DNA of 64,000 nt, taken from assembly GCF_039536245.1 (NCBI RefSeq), contig NZ_BAAAYN010000011.1:217417-281416 (forward strand), read 5' to 3'. Each line of letters opens with the position of its first letter. The stretch's first letter is position 1. The DNA is from Cryptosporangium minutisporangium (GTDB lineage: Bacteria; Actinomycetota; Actinomycetes; Mycobacteriales; Cryptosporangiaceae). Position numbers and translations under genes: made by a program. The notes below the pieces were generated by a model. The model had not been told where the DNA came from and searched no databases. It was given only the letters and a program-made list of their open reading frames with translations. Shown here piece after piece: positions 19 through 42,360 of this stretch.

Positions 19-2190
<2,172 letters not shown>

Positions 2191-4523: not shown

Positions 4524-6043
4524 GGAAGCCTCCTCGAGGCGGGTTGCGGGGTGTCGGCCGGGAAGTCGGCCAGCGGCTGGGCACGCGCCCTGGCGAGCGC
4601 CGCGTGCCAGCCGGCCTGCGCGGCCCGACGCTGCTCGGATGAGGTCGTGGGGCGGAACGCGGTGCTGTTCCGCGGACGGGCTGCCAGCTCGTCGACGCTC
4701 CAGAGCCCGGCGCCGACTCCGGCGAGCCGCGCGGCGCCGAGCGCGGACAGGTCGGCTTCGTCCGCCCGGTGGACCGCCCGCCCGGACAGATCGGCTTGGG
4801 CCTGCATGACCGTGGCGCTGCGGGACAGCCCGCCGTCGGCGAGCAGCGTCCCGATCGGGCCGCTGACCGCCTCGACGGCCGCGACGACGTCCTCGACCTG
4901 GAAGGCGACCGACTCGACCGCGGCCCGGGCCAGCGCCGGACGCCCGGTGCCGAGGGTCAGGCCGCTGACGGTGGCCACCGCGTCGGCGTCCCACCAGGGC
5001 GCGCCGAGCCCGCCGAACGCCGGGACGAACGCGACCCCGTCGGACGAGGACCCCGCGGCCGCCAGCAACTCGGTCGTCGACGTCTCGAACAGGTCGGCGA
5101 GCCAGGTGAGCGTCCGCCCCGAGGACCGGATGTTGCCCTCCAGCGCGAGCGTCGGCGCCTGGCCCCCGTGCTGCCAGCCGACCGTCAGGCACAGGCCGTG
5201 CTCCATCTCGGAGTGCCCGTCGACCACGGCCATCACCGAGGATCCGGTGCCGTAGGTGGCTTTCACGACGCCCGGACGCCAGCCGGCGTGGGCGAACAGC
5301 GCGGCGTGCGAGTCGCCGAGCACCGCCCGGACCGGCACACCGTCCGGCAACGGCGCGAGGCCGCACGCGGCCGGGAACGGACCGTCGGAGGGCGTGACCT
5401 CGCCCAGCACGGCGGCCGGCACCCCGAAGAGCTCCAGCAACCGGTCGTCCCAGGCCCCGGTCCGGACGTCGAGCAGCTGGGTGCGCGACGCGTTGCCGAT
5501 CTCGGTCCGGTGTTCCGGCGAGAAGCGGCTGAGCAGCCAGGAGTCGACCGTCCCGAGGCACAACTCCCCCGTCCGGCTGCGCCGCCGGTCCGGGTCGTAC
5601 GTGTCGAGCAGCCACTGCGCCTTGAGCGCGGAGAACATCGGGTCCAGCGGTAAGCCGCTGACGGCGGCGACCAGCGGCCCGGCGCCCTGGGCCAGTAGCT
5701 CGGCGCATCGGTCCGCGGTGCGCCGGTCCTGCCAGCCGAGCAGTGGGCCGACCGGATCGCCGGTCACCCGGTCCCAGAGCACGAGCGACTCGCGCTGGGT
5801 ACTGAGACCCACCGCGACGACGCGCCCGGCGTCCTCGCCCGGAACACAGTTCGCGACCGCGAGGCGCACGCTCTCCCAGACCTCGGCCGGGTCCTGCTCG
5901 ACCCAGCCGGGGCGCGGATGCGCCGTGGCGAGCGGCGCGGACGCCGAGCCGACGACGGCGCCGGAGACATCGACCAGGAGCGCCTTGGTGGCGCTGGTGC
6001 CCTGGTCGATCGCGAGGATCAGGGGATCAGGAGTGGAGGCCAT
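4520..6043 (-). CDS. FGGY-family carbohydrate kinase (candidate D-apulose kinase)
   Basis: This 507-residue cytoplasmic kinase of the FGGY family phosphorylates a sugar or ketose with ATP. The N-terminal ATPase motif is AIDQGTSATKALLVD (residues 11-25). Further on are GWVEQDPAEVWESV, the central TYGTGSSVMAVVDGHSE and the C-terminal ADGGLSRSATVMQAQADL. Length is normal for xylulose/ribulose/glycerol kinases. The ATG at 6043 lies inside the 3' end of the transketolase small-subunit gene (17-bp overlap). In the proposed pathway it would turn D-apulose into D-apulose 4-phosphate, the substrate for the split transketolase. Xylulokinase or another ketose kinase is the main alternative; sequence alone does not decide. 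Confidence 0.9.
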   Translation of the reverse strand: MASTPDPLILAIDQGTSATKALLVDVSGAVVGSASAPLATAHPRPGWVEQDPAEVWESVRLAVANCVPGEDAGRVVAVGLSTQRESLVLWDRVTGDPVGPLLGWQDRRTADRCAELLAQGAGPLVAAVSGLPLDPMFSALKAQWLLDTYDPDRRRSRTGELCLGTVDSWLLSRFSPEHRTEIGNASRTQLLDVRTGAWDDRLLELFGVPAAVLGEVTPSDGPFPAACGLAPLPDGVPVRAVLGDSHAALFAHAGWRPGVVKATYGTGSSVMAVVDGHSEMEHGLCLTVGWQHGGQAPTLALEGNIRSSGRTLTWLADLFETSTTELLAAAGSSSDGVAFVPAFGGLGAPWWDADAVATVSGLTLGTGRPALARAAVESVAFQVEDVVAAVEAVSGPIGTLLADGGLSRSATVMQAQADLSGRAVHRADEADLSALGAARLAGVGAGLWSVDELAARPRNSTAFRPTTSSEQRRAAQAGWHAALARARAQPLADFPADTPQPASRRLP

Positions 6044-10250: not shown

Positions 10251-11675
10251 TCAGTCCTCCGCAGGACGCCTGCGGGAGAGCGCGTCGGCGCCGGCGGCCA
10301 CCAGCAGCACCAGGCCGGTCACGAGGAAGACGTACGCCGAGCTGATGTTCGGGATCAGGTTCAACCCGTTCGGAATCATCGCGATGACGATCGCGCCGAT
10401 GATCGCGTCACGGATCTTCCCTCGTCCGCCGAACAGTGAGGTGCCGCCGATCACGGCGGCTCCCACAGCGTAGAGGACGTCCGTATTCTTCCCGAAGTCG
10501 GACGGGACGCCACCCAGGTACGACGCGCCGATGATCCCGGCCAGCCCCGCCATGCCCGAGCAGATGATGAAGCAGGACATCCGCACCCGAGCGACGTCGA
10601 TACCGGCCCGGCGGGCGGCCGCCCTGCTACCGCCGACCGCGTAGATGAAGCGCCCGTACTGGGTCCTGGCCAGGATCAGCGTCCAGAAGACGAACACGAC
10701 CGCGACCAGCAGCACCGACCACGGCACGCCCTGGATCTTCGCGAATACCGTGCGCGAGCGGTCCTGGTTGAGCACGAAGACGGCCAGCCCGGTCACCGCG
10801 GTGAGCGCGCCCGCCCGGACCAACACCAGAGCCAGCGGTTCGGCCGACAGCCCGGCCCGGCGCCGGGTGATCGCGCGGCGTGCGGTGGTGCCGAGGTACG
10901 CCACCATCGCGAGCGCCCACACCACCCACGCGAACACCACTGGCATGTAGCCGTTCTCGATGTTGTTGACCAGGTCGTAGTTGCGGGTCGGGATCGCCGC
11001 ACCGGTGCCGATGAACGTCAGCAGCGCGCCCTGCCAGGCGAGGAACAGGGCCAGCGTCACGATGAACGACGGGATGCCGATCCGGGCCACCAGGAACCCG
11101 ATCAGGGTGCCGATCGACGTGCCCACCGCCACCGACAGGAACATCGCCAGCAGCTGGGTCGACCCCAGCTGCGCCACGGCGACGACGATCCCGAGCGCGA
11201 TGATCACGGCCGGGATCCACAGCCGGGACAGCGCGGCCAGCACCACGGTGGCGGCCATGATCAGCATCAGCACGACGAACACGCCGGTACCGAGCGCCAG
11301 CCGGAGGTCGCCGTCCTGGTTGAGCGCCAGCGCCATTCCCGCGGCGCACACCCCACCCGCGGTTCCTGCCGACAGGTCGATCTCCCCGATCAGCAGCACG
11401 AACACCATGCCCATGCCGAGGACCGAGATCTGCGCCGCCTGCTGCAGCAGGTTCGCGAAGTTGCCCTTGCTGAGGAAGACGTCGCTGGTGTTGGCGAAGA
11501 TCACGACGAGGAGGGCCGCGCCGAGCACGGCCGGGAGCGCGCCGCTCTCGCCGCCCCGCACCCGGGCGACGTAGGCGCGGAACGCCTCGAGGAGGGTGCG
11601 GGGGCCGACGTCCGCGGCGAAGGCTTGGGCGTCGGCGTCCGGAAGCTCGCGAAGCGCGGGCGTGGTGTCGGTCAT
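10251..11675 (-). CDS. xylH: Xylose-type ABC transporter permease (XylH-like)
   Basis: This 474-residue permease is of the large XylH type, longer than RbsC proteins and with more hydrophobic helices. Characteristic stretches are VLLIGEIDLSAGTAGGVCA, GTLIGFLVARIGIPSFIVT and AVIGGTSLFGGRGKIRDA. It would form the channel with the single-domain ATPase encoded before it. I place the start at ATG 11675, with GAGG about 8 bases upstream. A GTG at 11687 that overlaps the ATPase stop is the alternative and would add four residues. Xylose is the likely substrate because the binding protein is XylF-like; other pentoses cannot be excluded. Confidence 0.87.
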   Translation of the reverse strand: MTDTTPALRELPDADAQAFAADVGPRTLLEAFRAYVARVRGGESGALPAVLGAALLVVIFANTSDVFLSKGNFANLLQQAAQISVLGMGMVFVLLIGEIDLSAGTAGGVCAAGMALALNQDGDLRLALGTGVFVVLMLIMAATVVLAALSRLWIPAVIIALGIVVAVAQLGSTQLLAMFLSVAVGTSIGTLIGFLVARIGIPSFIVTLALFLAWQGALLTFIGTGAAIPTRNYDLVNNIENGYMPVVFAWVVWALAMVAYLGTTARRAITRRRAGLSAEPLALVLVRAGALTAVTGLAVFVLNQDRSRTVFAKIQGVPWSVLLVAVVFVFWTLILARTQYGRFIYAVGGSRAAARRAGIDVARVRMSCFIICSGMAGLAGIIGASYLGGVPSDFGKNTDVLYAVGAAVIGGTSLFGGRGKIRDAIIGAIVIAMIPNGLNLIPNISSAYVFLVTGLVLLVAAGADALSRRRPAED

Positions 11676-11683
11676 GGGAAGCC

Positions 11684-12466
11684 TCACAGGTTCGCGTCGG
11701 CCGTGGCGCGGGAGAGTCCGAGGTCGCCGGACCGGCCGGTGGTGATCAGCTCGACGACCTGGCCCACCGAGGTGTCCGCCGCTCGCACCTCGGCCGCGAT
11801 CCGGCCCAGGTAGAGCGCGTCGATCCGGTCGGCGACCTCGATGACGTCGTTCATGTTGTGCGAGATCAGGACGACGCCGAGGCCGCGGTCCGCCAGGCGC
11901 CGCACCAGGTCGAGGACCTGTCGCGTCTGCGCGACGCCGAGCGCGGCCGTCGGCTCGTCGAGGATGACGATCCGGGAGTTCCAGAGCACGGCCTTGGCGA
12001 TCGCCACCGTCTGCCGCTGCCCGCCGGAGAGGCTGCTCACCGGCTGGCGCACGGACTTCACCGTGCGGACCGACAGGCTGGCCAGCACCCGCCTGGCCTG
12101 GGCTTCCATCGCGCCCTCGTCGAGCGTCCGGAGGCGGGTCTTGGACTCGCGTCCGAGGAACATGTTCTGGACGATGTCGAGGTTGTCGGCGAGCGCCAGA
12201 TCCTGGTAGACGATCTCGATGCCGAGCGCGGCGGCGTCCCGCGGACTGCTCAGCGTCACCGGGTTGCCCTCGAACCGGAACTCACCGGAGTCGACGTGGT
12301 GGATGCCCGCGATGCACTTGATGATCGTCGACTTGCCAGCCCCGTTGTCGCCGACGAGGGCGGTCACCTCGCCGGCGTGTACCGAGAGGTCGATGTCGTG
12401 CAGGACTTGGACCGGGCCGAAGCTCTTGTTGACCTTGCGTAACTCGAGAATGGGGGTGTCGGCCAC
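11684..12466 (-). CDS. Xylose-type ABC transporter ATP-binding protein, single cassette
   Basis: This 260-residue ATPase carries one complete cassette: Walker A GDNGAGKSTIIKCI, signature LSGGQRQTVAIAKAV, Walker B with VILDEPTAALG and the switch His in VLISHNMNDV. Proteobacterial XylG has two fused cassettes; here only one is encoded, so two copies would be needed per transporter. The GTG at 12466 has a perfect GGAGG 6 bases upstream, so I prefer it over the upstream ATG at 12499. The stop lies directly before the permease start. Confidence 0.9.
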   Translation of the reverse strand: MADTPILELRKVNKSFGPVQVLHDIDLSVHAGEVTALVGDNGAGKSTIIKCIAGIHHVDSGEFRFEGNPVTLSSPRDAAALGIEIVYQDLALADNLDIVQNMFLGRESKTRLRTLDEGAMEAQARRVLASLSVRTVKSVRQPVSSLSGGQRQTVAIAKAVLWNSRIVILDEPTAALGVAQTRQVLDLVRRLADRGLGVVLISHNMNDVIEVADRIDALYLGRIAAEVRAADTSVGQVVELITTGRSGDLGLSRATADANL

Positions 12467-13784: not shown

Positions 13785-15797
13785 TCACGCGCGGGCGGCG
13801 GTCTCTTCCTCCAATAGCCTGTCGGCTAGGGCGTCGATCGCCCGATCGAGACGAGCGCGGTCGGCCGGATCGGTGGTGTCCCAGTCGTCGAGCTGGGTGT
13901 CCAGCCACCGCCGCCACGCCGCCGTGATCTGCGCGAACGCGTCCGCTCCGGCCTCGGTGAGCGCCAGCCCACCGCCCTCTGCGCGCAGGTGCCCGTCCTG
14001 CACCGCCTGCGCGAAGACCGGCGCGATGACGTCGGGCGGAACCCGGTGGGCGAGCGCGACCTCCTCCAGCGTCGGCGGGCTTCCCTGGCGTCCGCGCAAG
14101 TGGACCTGGCCCACCACCCACGCCTGTCCCGGACTGAGCGCGGTCCCCGACCCAGCGAGGACCGACGGCGCCGCGGTGGGGGCGAGGCGCCGGATCAGCT
14201 GCGCCACGGTGCGCTCCAGCTGCCGGTCGGCGTCCGCGGTGTCGGGGGTTCCGAAACCCTCGCCGACGTCGGTCGCCCCGGCCCGCGCGGTGTCCCGCAA
14301 CGGCACCTGCTTGAGGAAGAGCGAGACCAGGAACCCGACGATCGCGATCGGCACCACCCAGGTGAAGACGTGGTTGATCGCCTCGGCGTACGCGGTGACG
14401 AACGGCTCGGCCTGCGCTGCCGGGAGATCGTGCAGCGCCGCCGGGTCGGTGACCACAGCGCTCGACACCCCCGGCGACCCCGCGAACGCACCGGTGAGCT
14501 CGGCGGACAGCTGGTTGGAGTAGAGCGTCCCGAACACCGCGGTACCGACCGCGCTGCCGACCGTCCGGAAGAACGTGACGCCCGCCGTCGCGGTCCCGAG
14601 GTCACCGTAGGCGACGGTGTTCTGCACCGCGATCGTGAGCACCTGCATCGCCAGGCCCAGCCCGGCGCCGAGCACGAACATGTAGAGCGATTCCAGCGCG
14701 ACGCCGGTGTGCTGGTTCATCGTCGACATGAGGAACAGGCCCACCGCCATCACCGCGGTACCGGCGATCGGGAACGCCTTGTACTTGCCGGTTCGGCTGA
14801 TCACCGAGCCGCTGACCATCGACATGATCAGCAGGCCGGCCATCAGCGGCAGCGTGCGGAAGCCGGAGCCGGTCGCCGAGACACCGTCGACGTACTGCAG
14901 GTAGGAGGGCAGGAACGTCATCGCGCCGAGCATCGCGAACCCGACGACGAAGCTGAGCACCGAGCACACCGTGAACACCGGGTTAGCGAAGAGCCGCAGC
15001 GGCAGCATCGGCTCGGCGGCGTTCTTCTCGGCGAAGGCGAACAACACGAGGAACGCGGCCGCGCAGCCGAACATGCCGAGGATCACCGGCGAGGTCCACC
15101 CGTACTCGTCCCCACCCCACTCCAGCGCCAGGATCAGCGAGACGACGCCGAGCGTCACCAGCACGATGCCCAGGTAGTCGATGAGCGGTTTGGTCGCGAT
15201 CGTCACCGAGGGGATCGTCCTGGCCGCCATCACGACCATCACGACCGCCACCGGCAGGTTGACGTAGAAGCACCAGCGCCAGGACAGGTGGTCGGTGAAC
15301 AGCCCGCCGAGCGTCGGGCCCAGCACCGTGGTCAGACCGAACACCGCACCGAGCGCACCCTGGTACCGGCCGCGGTCGCGCAGCGGGATGACGTCGGCGA
15401 TCAGCGCCTGCGCCGTCACCATCAGGCCGCCGCCACCGATGCCCTGGATCGCGCGGCCGATGATGAGCAGCGTCATGTTGTGCGCTACCCCGGCCACCGC
15501 CGACCCGAGCACGAACAGGATCGCGGAGAGCTGGAAGATCACCTTCCGGCCGAACAGGTCACCGAACTTGCCGACCAGCACCGACGCGACGGCCTCGGTG
15601 AGCATGTAGGCGGTGACCACCCAGGCCATGTGCCCGGCCCCACCGAGGTCGGCGACGATCGTGGGCAGCGCCGAGGAGACGATCGTCTGGTCGAGCGCCG
15701 CCAGCAGCATGCCGAGCAGGATCGTGGTGAAGACCAGGTTCATCTGGGTGCGCGACATCGTCGGGGGCCGGCCCGTCGCGACGTCACCCGCGGTCAC
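13785..15797 (-). CDS. DHA2-family multidrug exporter fused to a C-terminal winged-helix (MarR-like) domain
   Basis: This 670-residue protein has about 14 membrane helices in the first 490 residues and belongs to the EmrB/QacA (DHA2) drug:proton antiporters. It shows the motif LDQTIVSSALPTIVADL, motif A GKFGDLFGRKVIFQ and motif C-type GLTTVLGPTLGGLFTDHLSW. The last 150 residues are soluble and unlike the transporter: GQAWVVGQVHLRGRQGSPP, LEEVALAHRVPPDVIAPVF, then a wing-like GHLRAEGGGLALTEAGADAF and a helical tail, a pattern typical of MarR winged helices. It starts at GTG 15797; an ATG at 15758 would also keep all helices. The divergent exporter at 16069 shares its upstream region. Export of a toxic compound is inferred from the family. 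Confidence 0.88.
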   Translation of the reverse strand: MTAGDVATGRPPTMSRTQMNLVFTTILLGMLLAALDQTIVSSALPTIVADLGGAGHMAWVVTAYMLTEAVASVLVGKFGDLFGRKVIFQLSAILFVLGSAVAGVAHNMTLLIIGRAIQGIGGGGLMVTAQALIADVIPLRDRGRYQGALGAVFGLTTVLGPTLGGLFTDHLSWRWCFYVNLPVAVVMVVMAARTIPSVTIATKPLIDYLGIVLVTLGVVSLILALEWGGDEYGWTSPVILGMFGCAAAFLVLFAFAEKNAAEPMLPLRLFANPVFTVCSVLSFVVGFAMLGAMTFLPSYLQYVDGVSATGSGFRTLPLMAGLLIMSMVSGSVISRTGKYKAFPIAGTAVMAVGLFLMSTMNQHTGVALESLYMFVLGAGLGLAMQVLTIAVQNTVAYGDLGTATAGVTFFRTVGSAVGTAVFGTLYSNQLSAELTGAFAGSPGVSSAVVTDPAALHDLPAAQAEPFVTAYAEAINHVFTWVVPIAIVGFLVSLFLKQVPLRDTARAGATDVGEGFGTPDTADADRQLERTVAQLIRRLAPTAAPSVLAGSGTALSPGQAWVVGQVHLRGRQGSPPTLEEVALAHRVPPDVIAPVFAQAVQDGHLRAEGGGLALTEAGADAFAQITAAWRRWLDTQLDDWDTTDPADRARLDRAIDALADRLLEEETAARA

Positions 15798-34643: not shown

Positions 34644-36009
34644 CCGGGACCCCCGGGGCGACCACCGCACGTCCGGTGACCACCGCCCGGGGCAGGTCCG
34701 CACGTCCGGTGACCACCGCCCGGGGCAGGTGCCCGCGGCCGGCGGGACGCGCGTCGTCCCCGGCGGTCTCGCGGTGGAGCCGGCAGCGCTCGCGGTCCGG
34801 TTCGTCGACGCGCTGCACCGCGGCGGCGTCCCGGCGGGCACCGACCGCGCCGCCCGGTTCGCGGCTGCGCTCCGGCTGGTGCCGCCGTCGTCCCGGGACC
34901 GTCTCTACTGGACGGCGCGCACCACGCTGGTGTCCGACGCCACCCAGGTAGCCGCGTTCGACGCGGTGTTCGCCGGTGTCTTCGGCGACGACGCTCCGCC
35001 GGTGGACCTGGCCGACTCGCGCGGCGACCCGAACGCACCGCCGCTGCCCGACACCACGCCGGAGACCCGCCCGGCGCCCCCGGACAACCGTCCCGCGGAG
35101 CCGGCACCGTCCGGGGCAAGTGCGGGCTCGTCGTCCGCCGGGAACGAACCCGGGGAGCCCCGTGCTGTGCCTGCGCTGGCCTCGGCGACCGAGCGGCTCC
35201 AGCACACGGCGTTCGCCGAGCTCACCGCCGACGAGGTGGACGCCGTCCGGCAACTCGTCCGGCGGCTCGTCCTCGCCACGCCGCTCCGCCGGACCCGCCG
35301 CTCCCGGGCGTCCACCAAGAACGGCGAGCGGATCGACGTCCGCCGCACCGTACGGGCCGCCCGGAAGACCGGTGGGGATCCGGTCGCACTCGTGCATCGG
35401 CGCCGTAGGCGCCGCCCGCGGCCGCTCGTGCTGCTCTGTGACGTCTCCGGGTCGATGGAGCCCTACACCAGGGTGTTCCTCGCGCTGCTGCACGGCTGTG
35501 TTTTCGGCGGAAGGCGGGTGGCCGGGGCACGAGCGGAGGCGTTCGTGTTCGCCACCCGGCTGACGCGGCTGACCCGGTCACTCGCCGCTCGCGACCCGGA
35601 TCTCGCGCTGCGGCGCGCCGCCGAGGCCGCGCCCGACTGGGCCGGGGGCACCCGTTTGGCCGAGGCCCTGCGGCGGTTCCTGGACGACCACGGACGCCGT
35701 GGGCTCGCGCGCGGCGCGGTCGTCGTCGTACTCTCCGACGGCTGGGCCCAGGACGAGCCCGCCGACGTCGCCGCGCAGATGGCACGGTTACGCCGGGTCG
35801 CGCACCGGATCGTCTGGGTGAATCCGCGGAAGGCCGCCGCCGGCTACGCACCGAAGGTCGGTGGCATGGCCGCGGCGCTCCCGTACTGCGACGCGTTCGT
35901 GAGCGGGCATAGCCTGGCCGCACTGAACGAGGTTGCCGCCGCGGTCGCCGCATGCGGCCCCCGCTCCCCGAGCCGGCCTGGACCGAACCTCCAGAAGGGA
36001 TATCGCTGA
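34636..36009 (+). CDS. coxE: CoxE-like VWA-domain protein
   Basis: This 457-residue protein has an N-terminal helical part and a C-terminal von Willebrand A-like domain with the metal-ion-dependent adhesion motif DVSGSM in VLLCDVSGSMEPYTRVF. MoxR/VWA pairs such as CoxD/CoxE act together in metal-centre maturation. Its first 35 residues contain an exact tandem duplication of an 11-residue unit. A Pro/Ala/Ser-rich linker lies around residues 130-175. It starts at GTG 34636 inside coxD. Confidence 0.92.
   Translation: MPDRDPRGDHRTSGDHRPGQVRTSGDHRPGQVPAAGGTRVVPGGLAVEPAALAVRFVDALHRGGVPAGTDRAARFAAALRLVPPSSRDRLYWTARTTLVSDATQVAAFDAVFAGVFGDDAPPVDLADSRGDPNAPPLPDTTPETRPAPPDNRPAEPAPSGASAGSSSAGNEPGEPRAVPALASATERLQHTAFAELTADEVDAVRQLVRRLVLATPLRRTRRSRASTKNGERIDVRRTVRAARKTGGDPVALVHRRRRRRPRPLVLLCDVSGSMEPYTRVFLALLHGCVFGGRRVAGARAEAFVFATRLTRLTRSLAARDPDLALRRAAEAAPDWAGGTRLAEALRRFLDDHGRRGLARGAVVVVLSDGWAQDEPADVAAQMARLRRVAHRIVWVNPRKAAAGYAPKVGGMAAALPYCDAFVSGHSLAALNEVAAAVAACGPRSPSRPGPNLQKGYR
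34665..34730 (+). repeat. Perfect 2 x 33-bp tandem duplication in coxE
   Basis: 34665-34697 and 34698-34730 are identical and in frame, adding one extra 11-residue unit (RTSGDHRPGQV-like) to the N-terminus of CoxE. Perfect identity suggests a recent event. Confidence 0.9.
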
Positions 36010-37556: not shown

Positions 37557-38396
37557 ATGACTCCCCAGGGCACCGTCAACGACCAGGCGACCCCGATCCG
37601 CGTGCTGGCCCGGCGTTCCGGCGAACCCTGGACCGACGAGGAGTACTCCACCGTGGTCGCCGCGCTGGCCGCAGGCTCGAGCGTCGATCAGATCGCCGAA
37701 GAACTCCAACGCACGACGGGCGCCGTCCGGGGCGCGCTGCGCCTGCTGACCCCGCCCGCTCTCGCGCTGCGCGGGGCGGCCGCCGAGAACTGGCTCCGCG
37801 AACAGCTCACCAGCACCCCGGCGTACGACTGGCGGGCGTCCCGGCGGGCCCACAGCAATGGCACGTACTGGACGCCGGCGGCCGACTCGATCCTCATCGA
37901 GGCCTGGCGCCGCAGCACGCCGCTGGGCGAACTGGCGGCCACCGTCGGCGCCACCGAACTGCACACCCATCGCCGCCTGGTCCAGTTACGGCTGTCGCAC
38001 AGCGTCCTCGACACCGTCGACCGGCTGGGCTGCACTCCCGGCGGCGATCTGGAGGCGCGGTACCTGGTCGCCCGCGACGAGTACCGCTCGGCGGTGTGGG
38101 TGCTGACCATCGAAGGGCTGGTCGACCAATACGGCACGGTGTCCGACCACATCAGCGTCCACTCGAGCCGGGGTGCGGCCGCGATGGCGCTGGAGCGGCT
38201 CACCGCGACCCACCGATCCACCGCGGCGGCGCGCCGCTTGTCGCTCCCACCGGCACGGTGGCGCCTGGTCGGACGCGGCCTCGACACCGCTGCCTACGGT
38301 CTCGGCCACCCCGACACCGCCGGCGAGATCCCCGGCGTTCGCGCCCGGCCCGCCGAGGAGGAGGCGAGCCTGGCAGGTGACCGGGCCTCCGTGTGA
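37557..38396 (+). CDS. Putative DNA-binding protein with two Myb/SANT-like helical segments
   Basis: This 279-residue soluble protein was not recognised as a named family. Two segments look like homeodomain-type helix-turn-helices starting with a conserved Trp: PWTDEEYSTVVAALAAG followed by DQIAEELQRTTGAVRGAL, and YWTPAADSILIEAWRR followed by LGELAATVGATELHTHRR. ATG 37557 has GGAGGGA upstream. The 228-bp gap before it contains the cox terminator and no gene. A regulatory role is suggested by the fold only. Confidence 0.7.
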   Translation: MTPQGTVNDQATPIRVLARRSGEPWTDEEYSTVVAALAAGSSVDQIAEELQRTTGAVRGALRLLTPPALALRGAAAENWLREQLTSTPAYDWRASRRAHSNGTYWTPAADSILIEAWRRSTPLGELAATVGATELHTHRRLVQLRLSHSVLDTVDRLGCTPGGDLEARYLVARDEYRSAVWVLTIEGLVDQYGTVSDHISVHSSRGAAAMALERLTATHRSTAAARRLSLPPARWRLVGRGLDTAAYGLGHPDTAGEIPGVRARPAEEEASLAGDRASV

Positions 38397-38621
38397 CGCG
38401 CCTGGTAACCCGGCCACGGCGAAGCGAGCCGCCCCCGGCGACTGTGGGATGAGCCGCTCCGAGGGCGGCGAAACGAACCGTCACCTGCGGCGGCGTGTCT
38501 CGCCTCCGGCCCTCGCGGAGCGACCCGGAGCGTTTCCGGGGCACGGCCGGCTCGGCGGTCGCTACGGTGCCAGCGGTGGAGCCGGGTCCGGCCGGCTCCA
38601 CCGCAACCGGAGGGAGCGGGA

Positions 38622-39560
38622 GTGAGCACGTCACCGCACGACCACGTCGGAATCGACGCGGCCCGGATCGAGGATCTCGGCGGCGGGCTGTACGCGTACG
38701 TGCAGCCCAACGGCAGCTGGTTCATCAACAACACCGGCTTCCTCGTCGGCCGTGACGGCGTGACGCTGGTGGACGCGTGCGCGACCGAACGCCGCACCCG
38801 CGCGTTCCGCGAGTCGGTGACGTCGGTGACCGACCAGCCGATGCGCGTCCTGGTGAACACCCACAGCCACCCCGATCACACCGTGGGGAACGCCCTGTTC
38901 CGGGAGGCGGCGATCGTCGCGCACGAGGCCACCCGGGACGAGGTGCTCCGCGGGCTGCCCCCGGTCCAGGCCGTCTGGGAGCCGTTCGACATGGGCACGC
39001 TCCCGACCGCGGCGCCGTTCCTCACCTACCGCGAGGGGGTGACGCTCTGGGTCGACGACCTCCGCTGCGAAGTGCGGCACGTCGGCACCCCGGCGCACAC
39101 CACGAACGACTCGATCGTGTGGGTGCCGGAGCGATCGGTGCTCTACGCCGGCGATCTGGTGTTCAACGGCGGCACGCCGTTCCTGATGTCCGGCTCGGTG
39201 GCGGGGTCGATCAGCGTGCTGAGCGAGGTCATCGCCCCGCTGGGCGCGACGACGATCGTCCCCGGGCACGGGCCGGTGTGCGGCCCGGAGATCGTCGGCA
39301 CCGTGCTGGAGTACCTCCACTTCGTCCAGGACACCGCCCGGGCGGCGAAGGACGCGGGGCTCTCCCCGCTGGACGCCGCCCGGGAGACCGACCTCGGCCG
39401 GTACGCCGAGTGGACCGACAGCGAGCGCATCGTCGGCAACCTGCACCGCGCCTACGCCGAGCTCGACGGGCTCCCGCTCGGCACGCCGCTCGACATCCCC
39501 CAGGTCCTCGGCGACATGGTGACCTTCAACGGCGGCAAGCCCCTGACCTGCTACGCCTAG
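38622..39560 (+). CDS. Metallo-beta-lactamase-fold hydrolase
   Basis: This 312-residue protein has the MBL metal motif VNTHSHPDHTVGN, a distal His in HVGTPAHTTNDSIVWV, Asp in LYAGDLVFNGGTPF and the last His in TIVPGHGPVCGPEI. It should bind two metal ions and hydrolyse an unknown substrate. It starts at GTG 38622 with GGAGGGAG upstream. The 225 bp before it hold nothing I can identify. Confidence 0.9.
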   Translation: MSTSPHDHVGIDAARIEDLGGGLYAYVQPNGSWFINNTGFLVGRDGVTLVDACATERRTRAFRESVTSVTDQPMRVLVNTHSHPDHTVGNALFREAAIVAHEATRDEVLRGLPPVQAVWEPFDMGTLPTAAPFLTYREGVTLWVDDLRCEVRHVGTPAHTTNDSIVWVPERSVLYAGDLVFNGGTPFLMSGSVAGSISVLSEVIAPLGATTIVPGHGPVCGPEIVGTVLEYLHFVQDTARAAKDAGLSPLDAARETDLGRYAEWTDSERIVGNLHRAYAELDGLPLGTPLDIPQVLGDMVTFNGGKPLTCYA

Positions 39561-39587
39561 CCCGCCAGCGGCGTTACGGACCTGGAG

Positions 39588-39685
39588 CCCGGTGAGGGCG
39601 GCGCTGCCCCTCCGTCGCAGCGAGGGCCGTGACCGTTCTTTGGTCACAACCGAGCGAGACGGCGGGCAGCGTCGTCCTCACCGGG
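39588..39685. repeat. Long imperfect hairpin at the start of the repeat array
   Basis: Arm 39588-39634 pairs with 39642-39685 around the 7-base loop GTTCTTT. The outer ten bases (CCCGGTGAGG against CCTCACCGGG) and the inner GTGACC/GGTCAC pair perfectly, with scattered mismatches and small bulges between. It lies 27 bp after the MBL gene stop and may be a bidirectional terminator. Its right half is the repeated unit of the array. Confidence 0.75.
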
Positions 39686-40053
39686 CCGCCCACAAGGGCC
39701 GTGACCGTGCTTTGGTCACAACCGAGCGAGACGGCGGGCAGCGTCGTCCTCACCGGGCCGCCCACAAGGGCCGTGACCGTGCTTTGGTCACAACCGAGCG
39801 AGACGGCGGGCAGCGTCGTCCTCACCGGGCCGCCCACAAGGGCCGTGACCGTGCTTTGGTCACAACCGAGCGAGACGGCGGGCAGCGTCGTCCTCACCGG
39901 GCCGCCCACAAGGGCCGTGACCGTGCTTTGGTCACAACCGAGCGAGACGGCGGGCAGCGTCGTCCTCACCGGGCCGCCCACAAGGGCCGTGACCGTGCTT
40001 TGGTCACAACCGAGCGAGACGGCGGGCAGCGTCGTCCTCACCGGGCCGCCCAC
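39624..40053. repeat. Six-copy 72-bp tandem repeat
   Basis: Units start at 39624, 39696, 39768, 39840, 39912 and 39984. Apart from one base in the first copy and the last two bases of the sixth, all copies are identical. Each unit contains GTGACC-N7-GGTCAC. The array fills the gap between the convergent MBL and LacI genes. Because 72 is a multiple of three, several frames stay open through it, but none has a start site or sensible protein. There are no spacers, so it is not a CRISPR array. Confidence 0.95.
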
Positions 40054-40059
40054 CGCCCA

Positions 40060-41106
40060 CTAGGCGGAGGCGCGGAGTACTAGGTGGACGGGGAGAACCT
40101 CCCGCACCGGTTCGCCACCACTCAACATCTCCAGCAGCGCCTCGACGAGCCGCCGCCCGAACCCCCCGACCGGCTGGTGCACGGTGGTCAGCGGCGGCTC
40201 GGTCCACGCCGCGACCTCCTCCAGGTCGTCGAAGCCGATCACCGCGACGTCGTCGGGAACCCGCCGACCCGCGCGCCGGAGTACCCCGAGTGCGCCGGCC
40301 GCGGTGAGGTCGCTGGCCGCGAACACCGCGTCCAGGTCGGGCGCACGGTCCAGCAGCTCGGCCATCGCGCGCTCACCGCCCGCGCGGGTGAAGTCGCCGT
40401 GCGCGATCAGCGCCGGGTCCGGCTCGCCGAGCGACTCCCGGTACCCCTCCAGCACGCCGCGATAGCCGTCCAGACGTTCGACGGCCGCACGTTGGTCGAG
40501 GGACCCGGTGATCGTCGCGATCCGGCGGCGTCCCAGGCCGACGAGGTGCTCGACCGCACGTCGCGCGCCGTCGCGCTGGTCAACGTCGATCGATCCGGCG
40601 GTTCCGAGGTCGTCGACCCAGGGATGCCCGCCGAACATCACCGGGACGGGGAGGTCGCGCAGCGCCGTCAAGAGCGGATCGGTGCGGTGCACGGACAGCA
40701 CGATCGCTCCGTCGACGTGTCCGCCGGCGAGGTACCGCGCGATCCGGTCGTGATCGTCGTCGCCCCCCGTCAGCAGTAGCACGGCCTGACGCCCGGCGTC
40801 GCCGAGCTCTCGGCTGGTGGCGAGGATCAACCGGGAGAGCCACGGGTCGGTCATCACCAGGTTCGACGGCTCACCGACCACCAGCGCCACCGCGTCGGTC
40901 CGGCGGGTCACCAGGCTGCGGGCGACCGGGTTCGGCACGTATCCGAGCGTGCGGATCGCGTCCTCGACTCGCGCCCTGACCTCCGGGCCCACCTTCGAAG
41001 ACTGGTTCACCACCCGGGACACCGTCGCTCGCGACACCCCCGCGAGCTCGGCCACCGCGTCCAGCGTCGGCCGCGGACCCCAGCCGGAGCGCACCCCGTT
41101 CGCCAC
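40060..41106 (-). CDS. LacI-family transcriptional regulator
   Basis: This 348-residue regulator has the LacI helix-turn-helix and hinge (TLDAVAELAGVSRATVSRV, then VEDAIRTLGYVPNPVARSL) and a sugar-binding-protein-like effector domain ending with IGFDDLEEVAAWTEPPLTTV. It starts at GTG 41106. A LacI-type palindrome lies between it and the divergent LPMO gene, so it probably controls itself and that gene in response to an oligosaccharide. Confidence 0.92.
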   Translation of the reverse strand: MANGVRSGWGPRPTLDAVAELAGVSRATVSRVVNQSSKVGPEVRARVEDAIRTLGYVPNPVARSLVTRRTDAVALVVGEPSNLVMTDPWLSRLILATSRELGDAGRQAVLLLTGGDDDHDRIARYLAGGHVDGAIVLSVHRTDPLLTALRDLPVPVMFGGHPWVDDLGTAGSIDVDQRDGARRAVEHLVGLGRRRIATITGSLDQRAAVERLDGYRGVLEGYRESLGEPDPALIAHGDFTRAGGERAMAELLDRAPDLDAVFAASDLTAAGALGVLRRAGRRVPDDVAVIGFDDLEEVAAWTEPPLTTVHQPVGGFGRRLVEALLEMLSGGEPVREVLPVHLVLRASA

Positions 41107-41234
41107 CCGTCACCCCCGATCTCCGACGCCCACCGGAACGCCCTGACCACAGCGGCCGAGGATCCGAGGTGCGCCCAACCGTCTCTTTGCGACAGATCCG
41201 GGACTACAGCCGCCCAGCACCGCACCGAGGCTCA

Positions 41235-41250
41235 GAGAGAGCGCTTTCTC
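41235..41250. promoter_or_regulatory. LacI-family operator
   Basis: GAGAGAGCGCTTTCTC is a 16-bp palindrome with one mismatch and the central GCGC usual for LacI-family operators. It lies 129 bp upstream of the LacI start. The rest of the 318-bp divergent gap (41107-41424) holds no gene that I can see. Confidence 0.7.
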
Positions 41251-41424
41251 AATGTCGACGACACAGTACCGCGCACGTGGGAGGTCGCTGTCAATACCAC
41301 GGGTTATGGGGCTCCGCCGGGAGCCGGCCGCGGACTCGGTGAACCCCTCGTAGCCCCGGCGCGTACCCAGAGTAGGCGACCGCCTGTTCCGGTGGTGGCT
41401 GCCTTGGTGGAGGAGGGTTCACCG

Positions 41425-42360
41425 GTGAACAAGCTCCGGATGGCCGCCGTCGGCGCGCTCCTCGGGGTGCTGATCGCGCTGTCCCTGCCGGCCGGCGCGG
41501 CCTCGGCACACGGCGCACTCACCGCTCCGGTCTCCCGGGCCGCTGCGTGCGGCACCGAGGGCGGGAAGGCCGCTCGGTCGGCGGCGTGCCGGGCCGCGAT
41601 CGCGGCCAGCGAGCCGGGCGCCGCAGCGGCCTGGGACAACCTGCGGGTGGCCGGCGTGAACGGCCGGGACCGCGCGAGGATCCCGAACGGCAAGCTCTGC
41701 AGCGGCGGCCTGGCCCAGTACGCCGGGCTCGACCTGCCCCGCGTCGACTGGCCGGCGACGCAGGTGACGCCGGGCGCCGCGTTCACGTTCAGGTACCGCA
41801 CGACGATCCCGCACGCCGGGACGTTCCGGCTCTACGTCACCAAGCCCGGATACCAGCCGGGGAAGCGGCTGCGCTGGGCCGACCTGGAGTCCGCGCCGTT
41901 CCTCTCGGTCACCGACCCGCGCCGCACCGGCAACGCCTACGTGCTGCCCGGGCGGCTGCCCGCCGGACGTGCCGGGCGCCACGTCATCTACACGATCTGG
42001 CAGAACTCCAGCACGGCGGACACCTACTACTCCTGCTCGGACGTCGTCTTCCAGCCGTCGATCGGCACGGAGAAGACCACCGAGGCCCGTCCGAGCGAGC
42101 AAGCGTCGAGCCCCACCGCGGTAGCGGCCGACGGCGGGAGCGCCGGCGACGGCGACGAACCGACCGCGGCCGCCGGCGGCGTGCCGGACGCCGCCGAGGA
42201 ACTCGAACCGTCGCCGGTCGCCGCGCAGGAGCCGGCGGCGGAGGCGGGCGGGTCCCGATGGCCGCTGATCGCCGGTATCGCGGCGACGCTCGGAGTCATC
42301 GGGACGATCGGCCTGCTCGCGCTGTACTACCGCCCGCGCCCCCGCCACCGCCGTGGGTGA
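41425..42360 (+). CDS. Membrane-anchored AA10 lytic polysaccharide monooxygenase
   Basis: This 311-residue protein has a Sec signal ending ASA, giving a mature N-terminal His (HGALTAPVSRAAAC), the first half of the LPMO copper His-brace. The second His is probably in FRYRTTIPHAGTFRLYV. Cys and aromatic stretches such as HVIYTIWQNSSTADTYYSCS fit chitin/cellulose-active AA10 enzymes. Instead of a carbohydrate-binding module there is a 75-residue Ala/Glu/Pro-rich linker and a C-terminal helix (WPLIAGIAATLGVIGTIGLL) with an Arg-rich end, so it stays on the membrane. GTG 41425 has GGAGGAGG upstream. Confidence 0.9.
   Translation: MNKLRMAAVGALLGVLIALSLPAGAASAHGALTAPVSRAAACGTEGGKAARSAACRAAIAASEPGAAAAWDNLRVAGVNGRDRARIPNGKLCSGGLAQYAGLDLPRVDWPATQVTPGAAFTFRYRTTIPHAGTFRLYVTKPGYQPGKRLRWADLESAPFLSVTDPRRTGNAYVLPGRLPAGRAGRHVIYTIWQNSSTADTYYSCSDVVFQPSIGTEKTTEARPSEQASSPTAVAADGGSAGDGDEPTAAAGGVPDAAEELEPSPVAAQEPAAEAGGSRWPLIAGIAATLGVIGTIGLLALYYRPRPRHRRG

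Follow-up and report, generated by a model that had tools for sequence, protein, structure and literature searches.

GTAG/CGTC REPs are high-copy palindromes of 20-40 nt with unpaired tails that are plausibly RNA elements; they lie mostly 3' of genes, between convergent or unidirectional neighbours, the CGTC group has no known transposase, and the string 'actinobacter' does not occur in the available part of the text that describes them (PMC3733652). Excerpts of a study of E. coli REPs report that those within 15 nt of a stop codon stall ribosomes and that 446/4,072 predicted REPs lie that close (PMC12306157). Small mobile repeats of the MITE-like kind include RU-1 (127 bp) and RU-3 (103 bp), as given in extracts of the relevant reports (PMC2759123, PMC2229807), and the accessible portion of an account of bidirectional intrinsic terminators describes rho-independent hairpins with a poly-U tract and compensatory evolution (PMC5381666).

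The window analysed here is a 64,000-nt stretch of the Cryptosporangium minutisporangium genome that contains a tandem array of 72-bp units. It is reasonably probable that this array is a copy of a dispersed REP/MITE-like hairpin whose right arm was amplified by slippage, the hairpin being a putative 3'-end terminator or insulator that has spread between the 3' ends of genes. A search of the open-access literature returned no report of the hairpin family or of such arm arrays.

Like the GTAG/CGTC REPs, as far as the available text describes them (PMC3733652), the element is present in high copy (at least 74 in its own genome) and sits 3' of genes, the 3' ends of 130/152 right neighbours facing it, but it measures about 115 nt rather than 20-40, carries no GTAG/CGTC tag and abuts stop codons nearly base-exactly. 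Unlike the RAYT/REPIN system, it is accompanied by no Y1 tyrosine transposase match in any of five genomes. As with the stop-proximal REPs of E. coli in the excerpted study (PMC12306157), the hairpin directly follows the stop codon of a gene, and it does so in 94/152 copies (within -8 to +5 nt) as against 446/4,072 within 15 nt; by analogy, ribosome stalling is a possible further role. Size, intergenic position and dispersal are shared with RU-1 and RU-3 as extracted (PMC2759123, PMC2229807), and terminal inverted repeats, here the arms of the element, are shared with MITEs, but no target-site duplication or parent IS was recognised. The bidirectional terminators of the accessible account (PMC5381666) likewise have a hairpin common to convergent genes and a covarying stem, and intrinsic terminators in general a stable GC-rich stem-loop at the gene 3' end; the copies described here differ in forming one family and in having no U-tract directly after the stem. 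Judged on these likenesses, the element would resemble REPs and bidirectional terminators in its working and MITEs in its size, while lacking the size, tag and transposase of REPs and the U-tract of terminators.

The array and its parent hairpin

The first-pass annotation of the window proposed that a near-identical 72-bp array had grown from one arm of a long hairpin, and this origin is borne out. TRF places the array at 39623-40053 (period 72, 6.0 copies, 99% matches), and letter-by-letter comparison shows that units 2-5 are identical, that unit 1 differs from them by one base (T instead of G) and that unit 6 deviates solely at its last, junction base; near identity of this order fits the recent expansion that had been suggested. 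The left flank is an inverted match, as claimed: 39587-39609 is 91% complementary to 39664-39686 and to the same segment in every later unit. On the + strand, 39580-39700 forms one hairpin with a predicted energy of -88.8 kcal/mol (dinucleotide shuffles -55.7 +/- 4.1, z -8.2), a value reached by 0/200 shuffles, and the minus strand folds at -83.8 kcal/mol (z -6.7). The parent hairpin of the window copy spans 39580-39696. The dyad GTGACC-N7-GGTCAC, correctly described as kept in every unit, is the apical stem-loop of this hairpin, and each 72-bp unit starts high on the left side of the stem, crosses the tip and finishes at the right end. A protein-binding array had also been put forward with the dyad as its sole argument; no finding favours it, the dyad being the hairpin tip, and the candidate was rejected.

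In the predicted fold of the stretch as a whole, the single left arm is taken up by unit 1, leaving the remaining five units to form only local stem-loops. Both ends of the element survive, with the canonical right end CCGCCCACTAG lying on the TAG stop of the LacI-type gene, which means that growth was internal. The array stands as annotated, and the limits given for the feature, 39588-40053, are corrected to about 39580 to 40063 (Table 1). The array would have arisen by replication slippage on the hairpin and itself looks like a local copying accident, units 2-6 being surplus arms that are probably neutral and variable in number. 'Terminator turned minisatellite', one of the original suggestions, comes close to this reading but did not foresee a dispersed family at gene ends.

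Table 1. Coordinates of the element, its parts and its neighbours in the window, and positions of single N characters in the draft genome
Feature	Position	Strand	Basis
Whole element including internal expansion; left end ACCTGGAGCCCG at 39580, right end CCGCCCACTAG to 40063	39580..40063	+	family alignment A1 (46 copies), sequence
Left arm of hairpin, single copy	39580..39622	+	fold, inverted repeats
Unit 1: apical stem-loop and right arm of parent hairpin	39623..39694	+	TRF, fold, sequence
Apical stem-loop GTGACC-N7-GGTCAC, recurring in each unit	39629..39647	+	sequence, fold
Units 2-6: right half repeated in tandem, no left-arm partners; 2-5 identical	39695..40053	+	TRF, sequence
Canonical right end CCGCCCACTAG; includes the TAG stop of the minus-strand gene (CTA at 40060-40062)	40053..40063	+	sequence, ORFs, family rule
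Left neighbour, metallo-beta-lactamase superfamily (PF00753); stop 19 nt from element	38622..39560	+	ORFs, domain match
Right neighbour, LacI-type regulator (PF00356, PF13377), convergent; stop within right end of element	40060..41106	-	ORFs, domain match
Single N positions, G000 draft	L028:2777, L031:2473, L109:142, L117:1796, L129:1029, L179:1669		

That the array encodes a repeated peptide, 72 being a multiple of 3, is extremely improbable. Open frames of 144-163 codons run on both strands, but repeats of length 3n stay open by construction, and the log-odds per codon lie between -0.09 and -0.83 across the six frames, whereas the two neighbouring genes score +0.35 and +0.21; a coding role was rejected on these scores. 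Elsewhere in the window, a perfect 33-bp duplication lies within open reading frames at 34665-34730.

Arm amplification and the assembly

The full 466-base array matches once in its own genome (G000, a 9.23-Mb draft in 152 contigs) and the hairpin recurs at many places. The annotation would have been refuted by a unit that is a common dispersed repeat without array structure, and half of this condition applies: the parent hairpin is a common dispersed repeat, but the 72-bp array was found only at the window locus (genome search, and TRF over the loci of the 152 copies described below). Related growth of an arm is present at three other G000 copies. At L128 the left arm forms a 63-bp unit in five identical copies with diverged edge copies, and an apparent second complete element is nested inside the repeats; a 34-bp right tip occurs about four times at L179, where an N-joined duplication is also present, and L112 has two right tips. 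TRF filters differed between the two scans of the copy loci, and very short tip duplications may have been missed. Mycobacterial MIRU minisatellites are actinobacterial intergenic repeats that become tandem arrays, a description that also suits the window array. Arm arrays would illustrate how a minisatellite may be seeded in nature by a long hairpin.

The draft also contains duplications of 80-110 bp joined by a single N (97-100% by TRF) at or near L028, L031, L117, L129 and L179. A longer one, of 144 bp, is found at L109 some 1.2 kb away from the copy there. All are probably overlapping, unmerged contig ends. They mark assembly trouble, often at hairpins, in view of which the 72-bp array is taken as likely to exist as true sequence and its copy number of six as not proven. 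An assembler or gap filler multiplying one element on a GC-rich hairpin is an unlikely source of the array. The N-joined duplications at or near other copies, the identity of units 2-5 and the occurrence of all four arm amplifications in one draft genome point that way; the window, however, contains no N, unit 1 is one base off units 2-6, and some repeated arms at L128, L179 and L112 carry substitutions, unlike plain software copying.

A hairpin family of one genus and its sister

The parent hairpin belongs to a dispersed family of imperfect palindromes of ~115 nt, with two arms of ~45 nt and conserved ends, ACCTGGAGCCCG on the left and CGGGCCGCCCAC on the right. At least 152 copies from four species of one genus were examined (at least 74 in G000, 45 in G002, 21 in G003 and 12 in G001); these are the better-scoring copies, a lower bound rather than a census, each genome search having scored at most 150 candidates. 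The raw model match counts (130, 110, 48, 35 and 9) cannot be read as copy numbers, many copies being counted on both strands. Alignment A1, from which the covariance model R1 was built, holds 46 copies and omits L042 and L043 by hand and the short or broken L059, L064, L070 and L031. L042, L059, L064, L070 and L031 are outside A1 yet counted among the 152 copies, and L043 and L044, which have no model match, are not among them. Most copies (140/152) are 114-122 nt long and the others 57-66 (4), 97-104 (3) or 171-177 nt (5); the four shortest (L059, L064, L070 and L164) keep both ends and have lost the apex. The longer variants, with a core of 171-177 nt, are L095, L172, L178, L181 and L183. 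At L140 (G002), elements of opposite orientation at 1381-1508 (minus) and 1540-1666 (plus) lie about 31 bp apart. A second small repeat, the hairpin GCGCC-GCCA-GGCGC, was found by regular expression at most about 60 nt to the left of the element in 41/152 copies (e.g. L048, L053 and L054).

At E <= 1e-6, R1 matched 5/61 genomes of the order, all from one family (the four of the genus and G004, of a sister genus), and none of the 56 others. A DNA search of the 61 genomes gave matches at E <= 0.001 in nine, the four of the genus and five more, each of the five with one short match (E 4e-4 to 9e-4) unsupported by the covariance model. Plasmids, phages and viral contigs contained no match to the element; two ends-only matches in viral contigs were dropped since they do not fold as the element does. 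A scan of named genomes with a genus-specific pattern, in a set that may omit records close to the window's genome, gave three matches in unrelated MAGs, taken as chance, and cmsearch on these MAGs gave less than 13 bits elsewhere in one (L078) and nothing in the other two.

The copies in A1 form one helix of 32 pairs in which 96.5% of cells are standard pairs, with changes on both sides in 18 pairs. The covariation score is 0.414, against 0.141 for shuffles and at most 0.113 for slid controls. Near the base, three neighbouring pairs (columns 25-27 with 121-123) are highly variable but remain paired in 134/138 cells. Of 143 genus copies, a set that excludes those of the 152 that are shorter than 90 nt, longer than 125 nt or N-containing, 138 fold better as the + strand than as the minus strand. 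G004 has nine distinct copies, 114 nt long except for one of 66 nt. All keep the left end ACCTGGAGCCCG, with T replacing A in one of them, and have a right end of the same type; their interior is unlike the one seen in the first genus, and for 9/9 the + strand again gives the better fold. Between the two genera, therefore, the ends, length, self-complementarity and strand have been kept and the arm sequence has been rewritten.

Template-switch correction is known for bacterial quasi-palindromes and could perfect them by mutation, giving apparent covariation with no selection for the fold. Such an origin is quite unlikely here: G-U pairs persist rather than being corrected (pair 31/117 in 42/46 A1 copies), and the sister genus favours the same strand despite its different interior. 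The stem cells of A1 include 134 G-T and 20 A-C. The structured RNA that had been suggested for the array is possible, given the strand preference, but Rfam returned no match in the window at 38000-42000 (E <= 1), nor in six element loci at E <= 0.1. An overlap with MIR8788 elsewhere was sub-threshold (24.9 bits against a cut-off of 124) and was taken as chance.

Within A1 the element begins with ACCTGGA- and ends with -CCGCCCAC, the right-end consensus, which is followed by a stop or by varied sequence and has no U-tract directly after the stem; the left flank is weakly T-rich. Integron attC sites carry GTTRRRY and RYYYAAC boxes at their two ends, and this box pair is absent from the element ends (A1, by eye).

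Placement at gene ends

Neighbouring genes were called by a simple codon-score script, with the element set on the + strand. In 130/152 copies the gene to the right lies on the opposite strand, in 21 it shares the strand of the element, and in one no right gene was seen; the opposite-strand cases comprise 80 convergent pairs, 49 in which both neighbours are on the minus strand and one without a left gene seen. The stop of the right gene falls within -33 to +6 nt of the element end in 114/152 copies and within -8 to +5 nt in 94/152, with -4 the commonest distance (38 copies). TAG makes up 60/114 of the abutting stops (-33 to +6) against 63/342 for other genes of the same loci (Fisher p 1e-11), and reading-frame positions are uneven (68, 23 and 23). 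The left end has no such rule: a + strand stop is at most 8 nt away in 7 of the 99 copies with a + strand left gene, and the left gene is on the minus strand in 51/152. By eye, 8/9 listed places in G004 end at or a few bases from an opposing stop, and no opposing gene was called at L226.

Sixteen copies have their opposing stop elsewhere; six of these end in CACAAA and several lie before a terminator-like hairpin. At L046 (G002), the right end of the element meets, after a T-run, the 3' end of Ms_IGR-5 (RF02471, an actinobacterial sRNA gene; L046:2508-2717, minus, 77.5 bits). Abutment both to stops and to this 3' end suggests a rule of placement where transcription units end, in most cases at a stop codon; a single locus supplies the non-coding case. 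No Rfam gene other than Ms_IGR-5 was found in 14 loci, nine of them with opposing-stop-elsewhere copies, and no tRNA in 16 loci. Ms_IGR-5 is also present in G000, at L095:7426-7639 (plus), where an inverted, longer element begins some 30-45 nt beyond it.

Turnover between species

Positions are common to species at L035/L061/L074, L041/L052/L065 and L039/L056, and the interiors differ between species at L035/L061/L074 and L039/L056. Elsewhere, presence varies. At site A, G002 has the element, G001 and G003 a plain hairpin and G000 another long insert; at site B, G002 has the element, G000 an inverted, longer one, G001 a right-end remnant of ~25 nt and G003 nothing; at site C, only G000 has it. 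Where G003 carries an element at L145 (e1), each of G000, G001 and G002 has a different simple hairpin, and in the place of the G000 element at L174 (e1) G001 and G002 likewise have different simple hairpins. The second element of L174 (e2) has no evident substitute hairpin and a 16-base match to its right end in G002; for the second of L145 (e2), no alignment between species was obtained. In G001, G002 and G003 the window locus lacks the element: G002 has other hairpins and a short tandem array of its own, and G001 and G003 have other sequence, partly apparently coding by eye, with no match to the left gene in G001.

A substitute hairpin is thus present in at least one relative at 4/7 element-less sites (A, L145 e1, L174 e1 and the window), and by eye there is none at site B in G003, site C or L174 e2. 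No clear target-site duplication was seen, the element-less sites being too diverged to show one. Beside site C, the sequence AAACGTGAGA-N-GTCTCAAATAGCGG is conserved in four species (L095 reverse complement ~6270, L046 ~5310-5350, L096 and L097) and is perhaps a regulatory site.

Replication, spread and putative role

The G003 genome is one contig that starts at dnaA, followed by dnaN, a RecF/SMC-like gene, gyrB and gyrA. Its strong copies (>= 69 bits, n=21) are minus in 10/11 cases in the first half and plus in 10/10 in the second, so that 20/21 share one orientation to replication (p 0.019 against a null of 0.75, p 2e-5 against 0.5), with no copy of this strength in the interval from 2.57 to 6.44 Mb. 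Gene direction agrees with fork movement in 51/75 cases at element loci and 52/78 at control loci; among convergent pairs, where this gene bias plays no part, 11/12 strong copies keep to the shared orientation. No polarity is evident among nine weaker separate matches (28-60 bits), of which four agree with it and five do not, strand being less certain in weak palindromes; two of them lie inside 2.57-6.44 Mb, and they may be decayed copies or chance palindromes. Neighbouring copies are coherent in orientation in G000 (25/35, p 0.008), G001 (5/5, p 0.03) and G003 (17/20, p 0.0008), and not significantly so in G002 (19/29, p 0.13). The bias in G003 makes a link between the spread or retention of the element and fork direction testable.

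The element is probably a 3'-end hairpin, a putative terminator or antisense insulator. Transcription of the + strand would most likely be stopped before it enters the abutted gene, and the transcript of that gene may itself also be ended by the element. The favoured (+) strand is read towards the abutting gene, which for the strong copies in G003 is head-on to the fork, which is consistent with an insulator that shields the end of a leading-strand gene from antisense or head-on transcription. The exchange with ordinary hairpins is in keeping with a terminator, though not one of the canonical intrinsic type. Against this reading stand the missing U-tract at the right end, the antisense orientation of the best-folding strand relative to the abutting gene, and the 51/152 copies with a minus-strand left gene, in which no adjoining + strand gene feeds transcripts into the element. 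If the reading holds, the element fixes at gene ends almost to the base and swaps with ordinary terminator hairpins, which would make terminators mobile, exchangeable parts in these bacteria.

Spread between 3' ends may have occurred by transposition, by recombination between hairpins or by both. Movement by a Y1 tyrosine transposase, as for REPs/REPINs of the RAYT type or MITEs derived from IS200/IS605, appears very unlikely. The tagged palindrome with unpaired 5' and 3' tails, the high copy number, the position at 3' ends and the replication orientation of the strong G003 copies would all suit it, but PF01797 has no match in G000-G004 at E <= 0.01 (0/5, the control being positive in 6/14 genomes), the copies are mostly 114-122 rather than 20-40 nt, and the stem end in A1 lacks a GTAG or CGTC tag. 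More doubtful still is a SINE-like element inserted at 3' ends as a DNA copy of its + strand RNA, with a fixed 3' end of its own and stops or terminator tails as target. The right end fixed at stops or T-runs, the preferred fold of the + strand RNA and the right-end-only remnant at site B in G001 agree with RNA templating, whereas the four shortest copies have lost the apex and not the 5' end, both ends being kept.

A bolder form of the terminator/insulator reading is itself unlikely: the element would represent a class of 3'-end-seeking hairpins that keep only their ends and a length of ~115 nt between genera while their arms are rewritten, settle almost base-exactly at stops (preferably TAG) or terminator tails, are oriented to the fork, serve as replaceable insulators against head-on antisense transcription and are moved by an enzyme or as RNA, with arm arrays as a by-product. 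Near the origin of G003, L156 carries two further tandem arrays, at 11513-11852 (27 bp x 12.7) and 14777-15022 (18 bp x 13.6).
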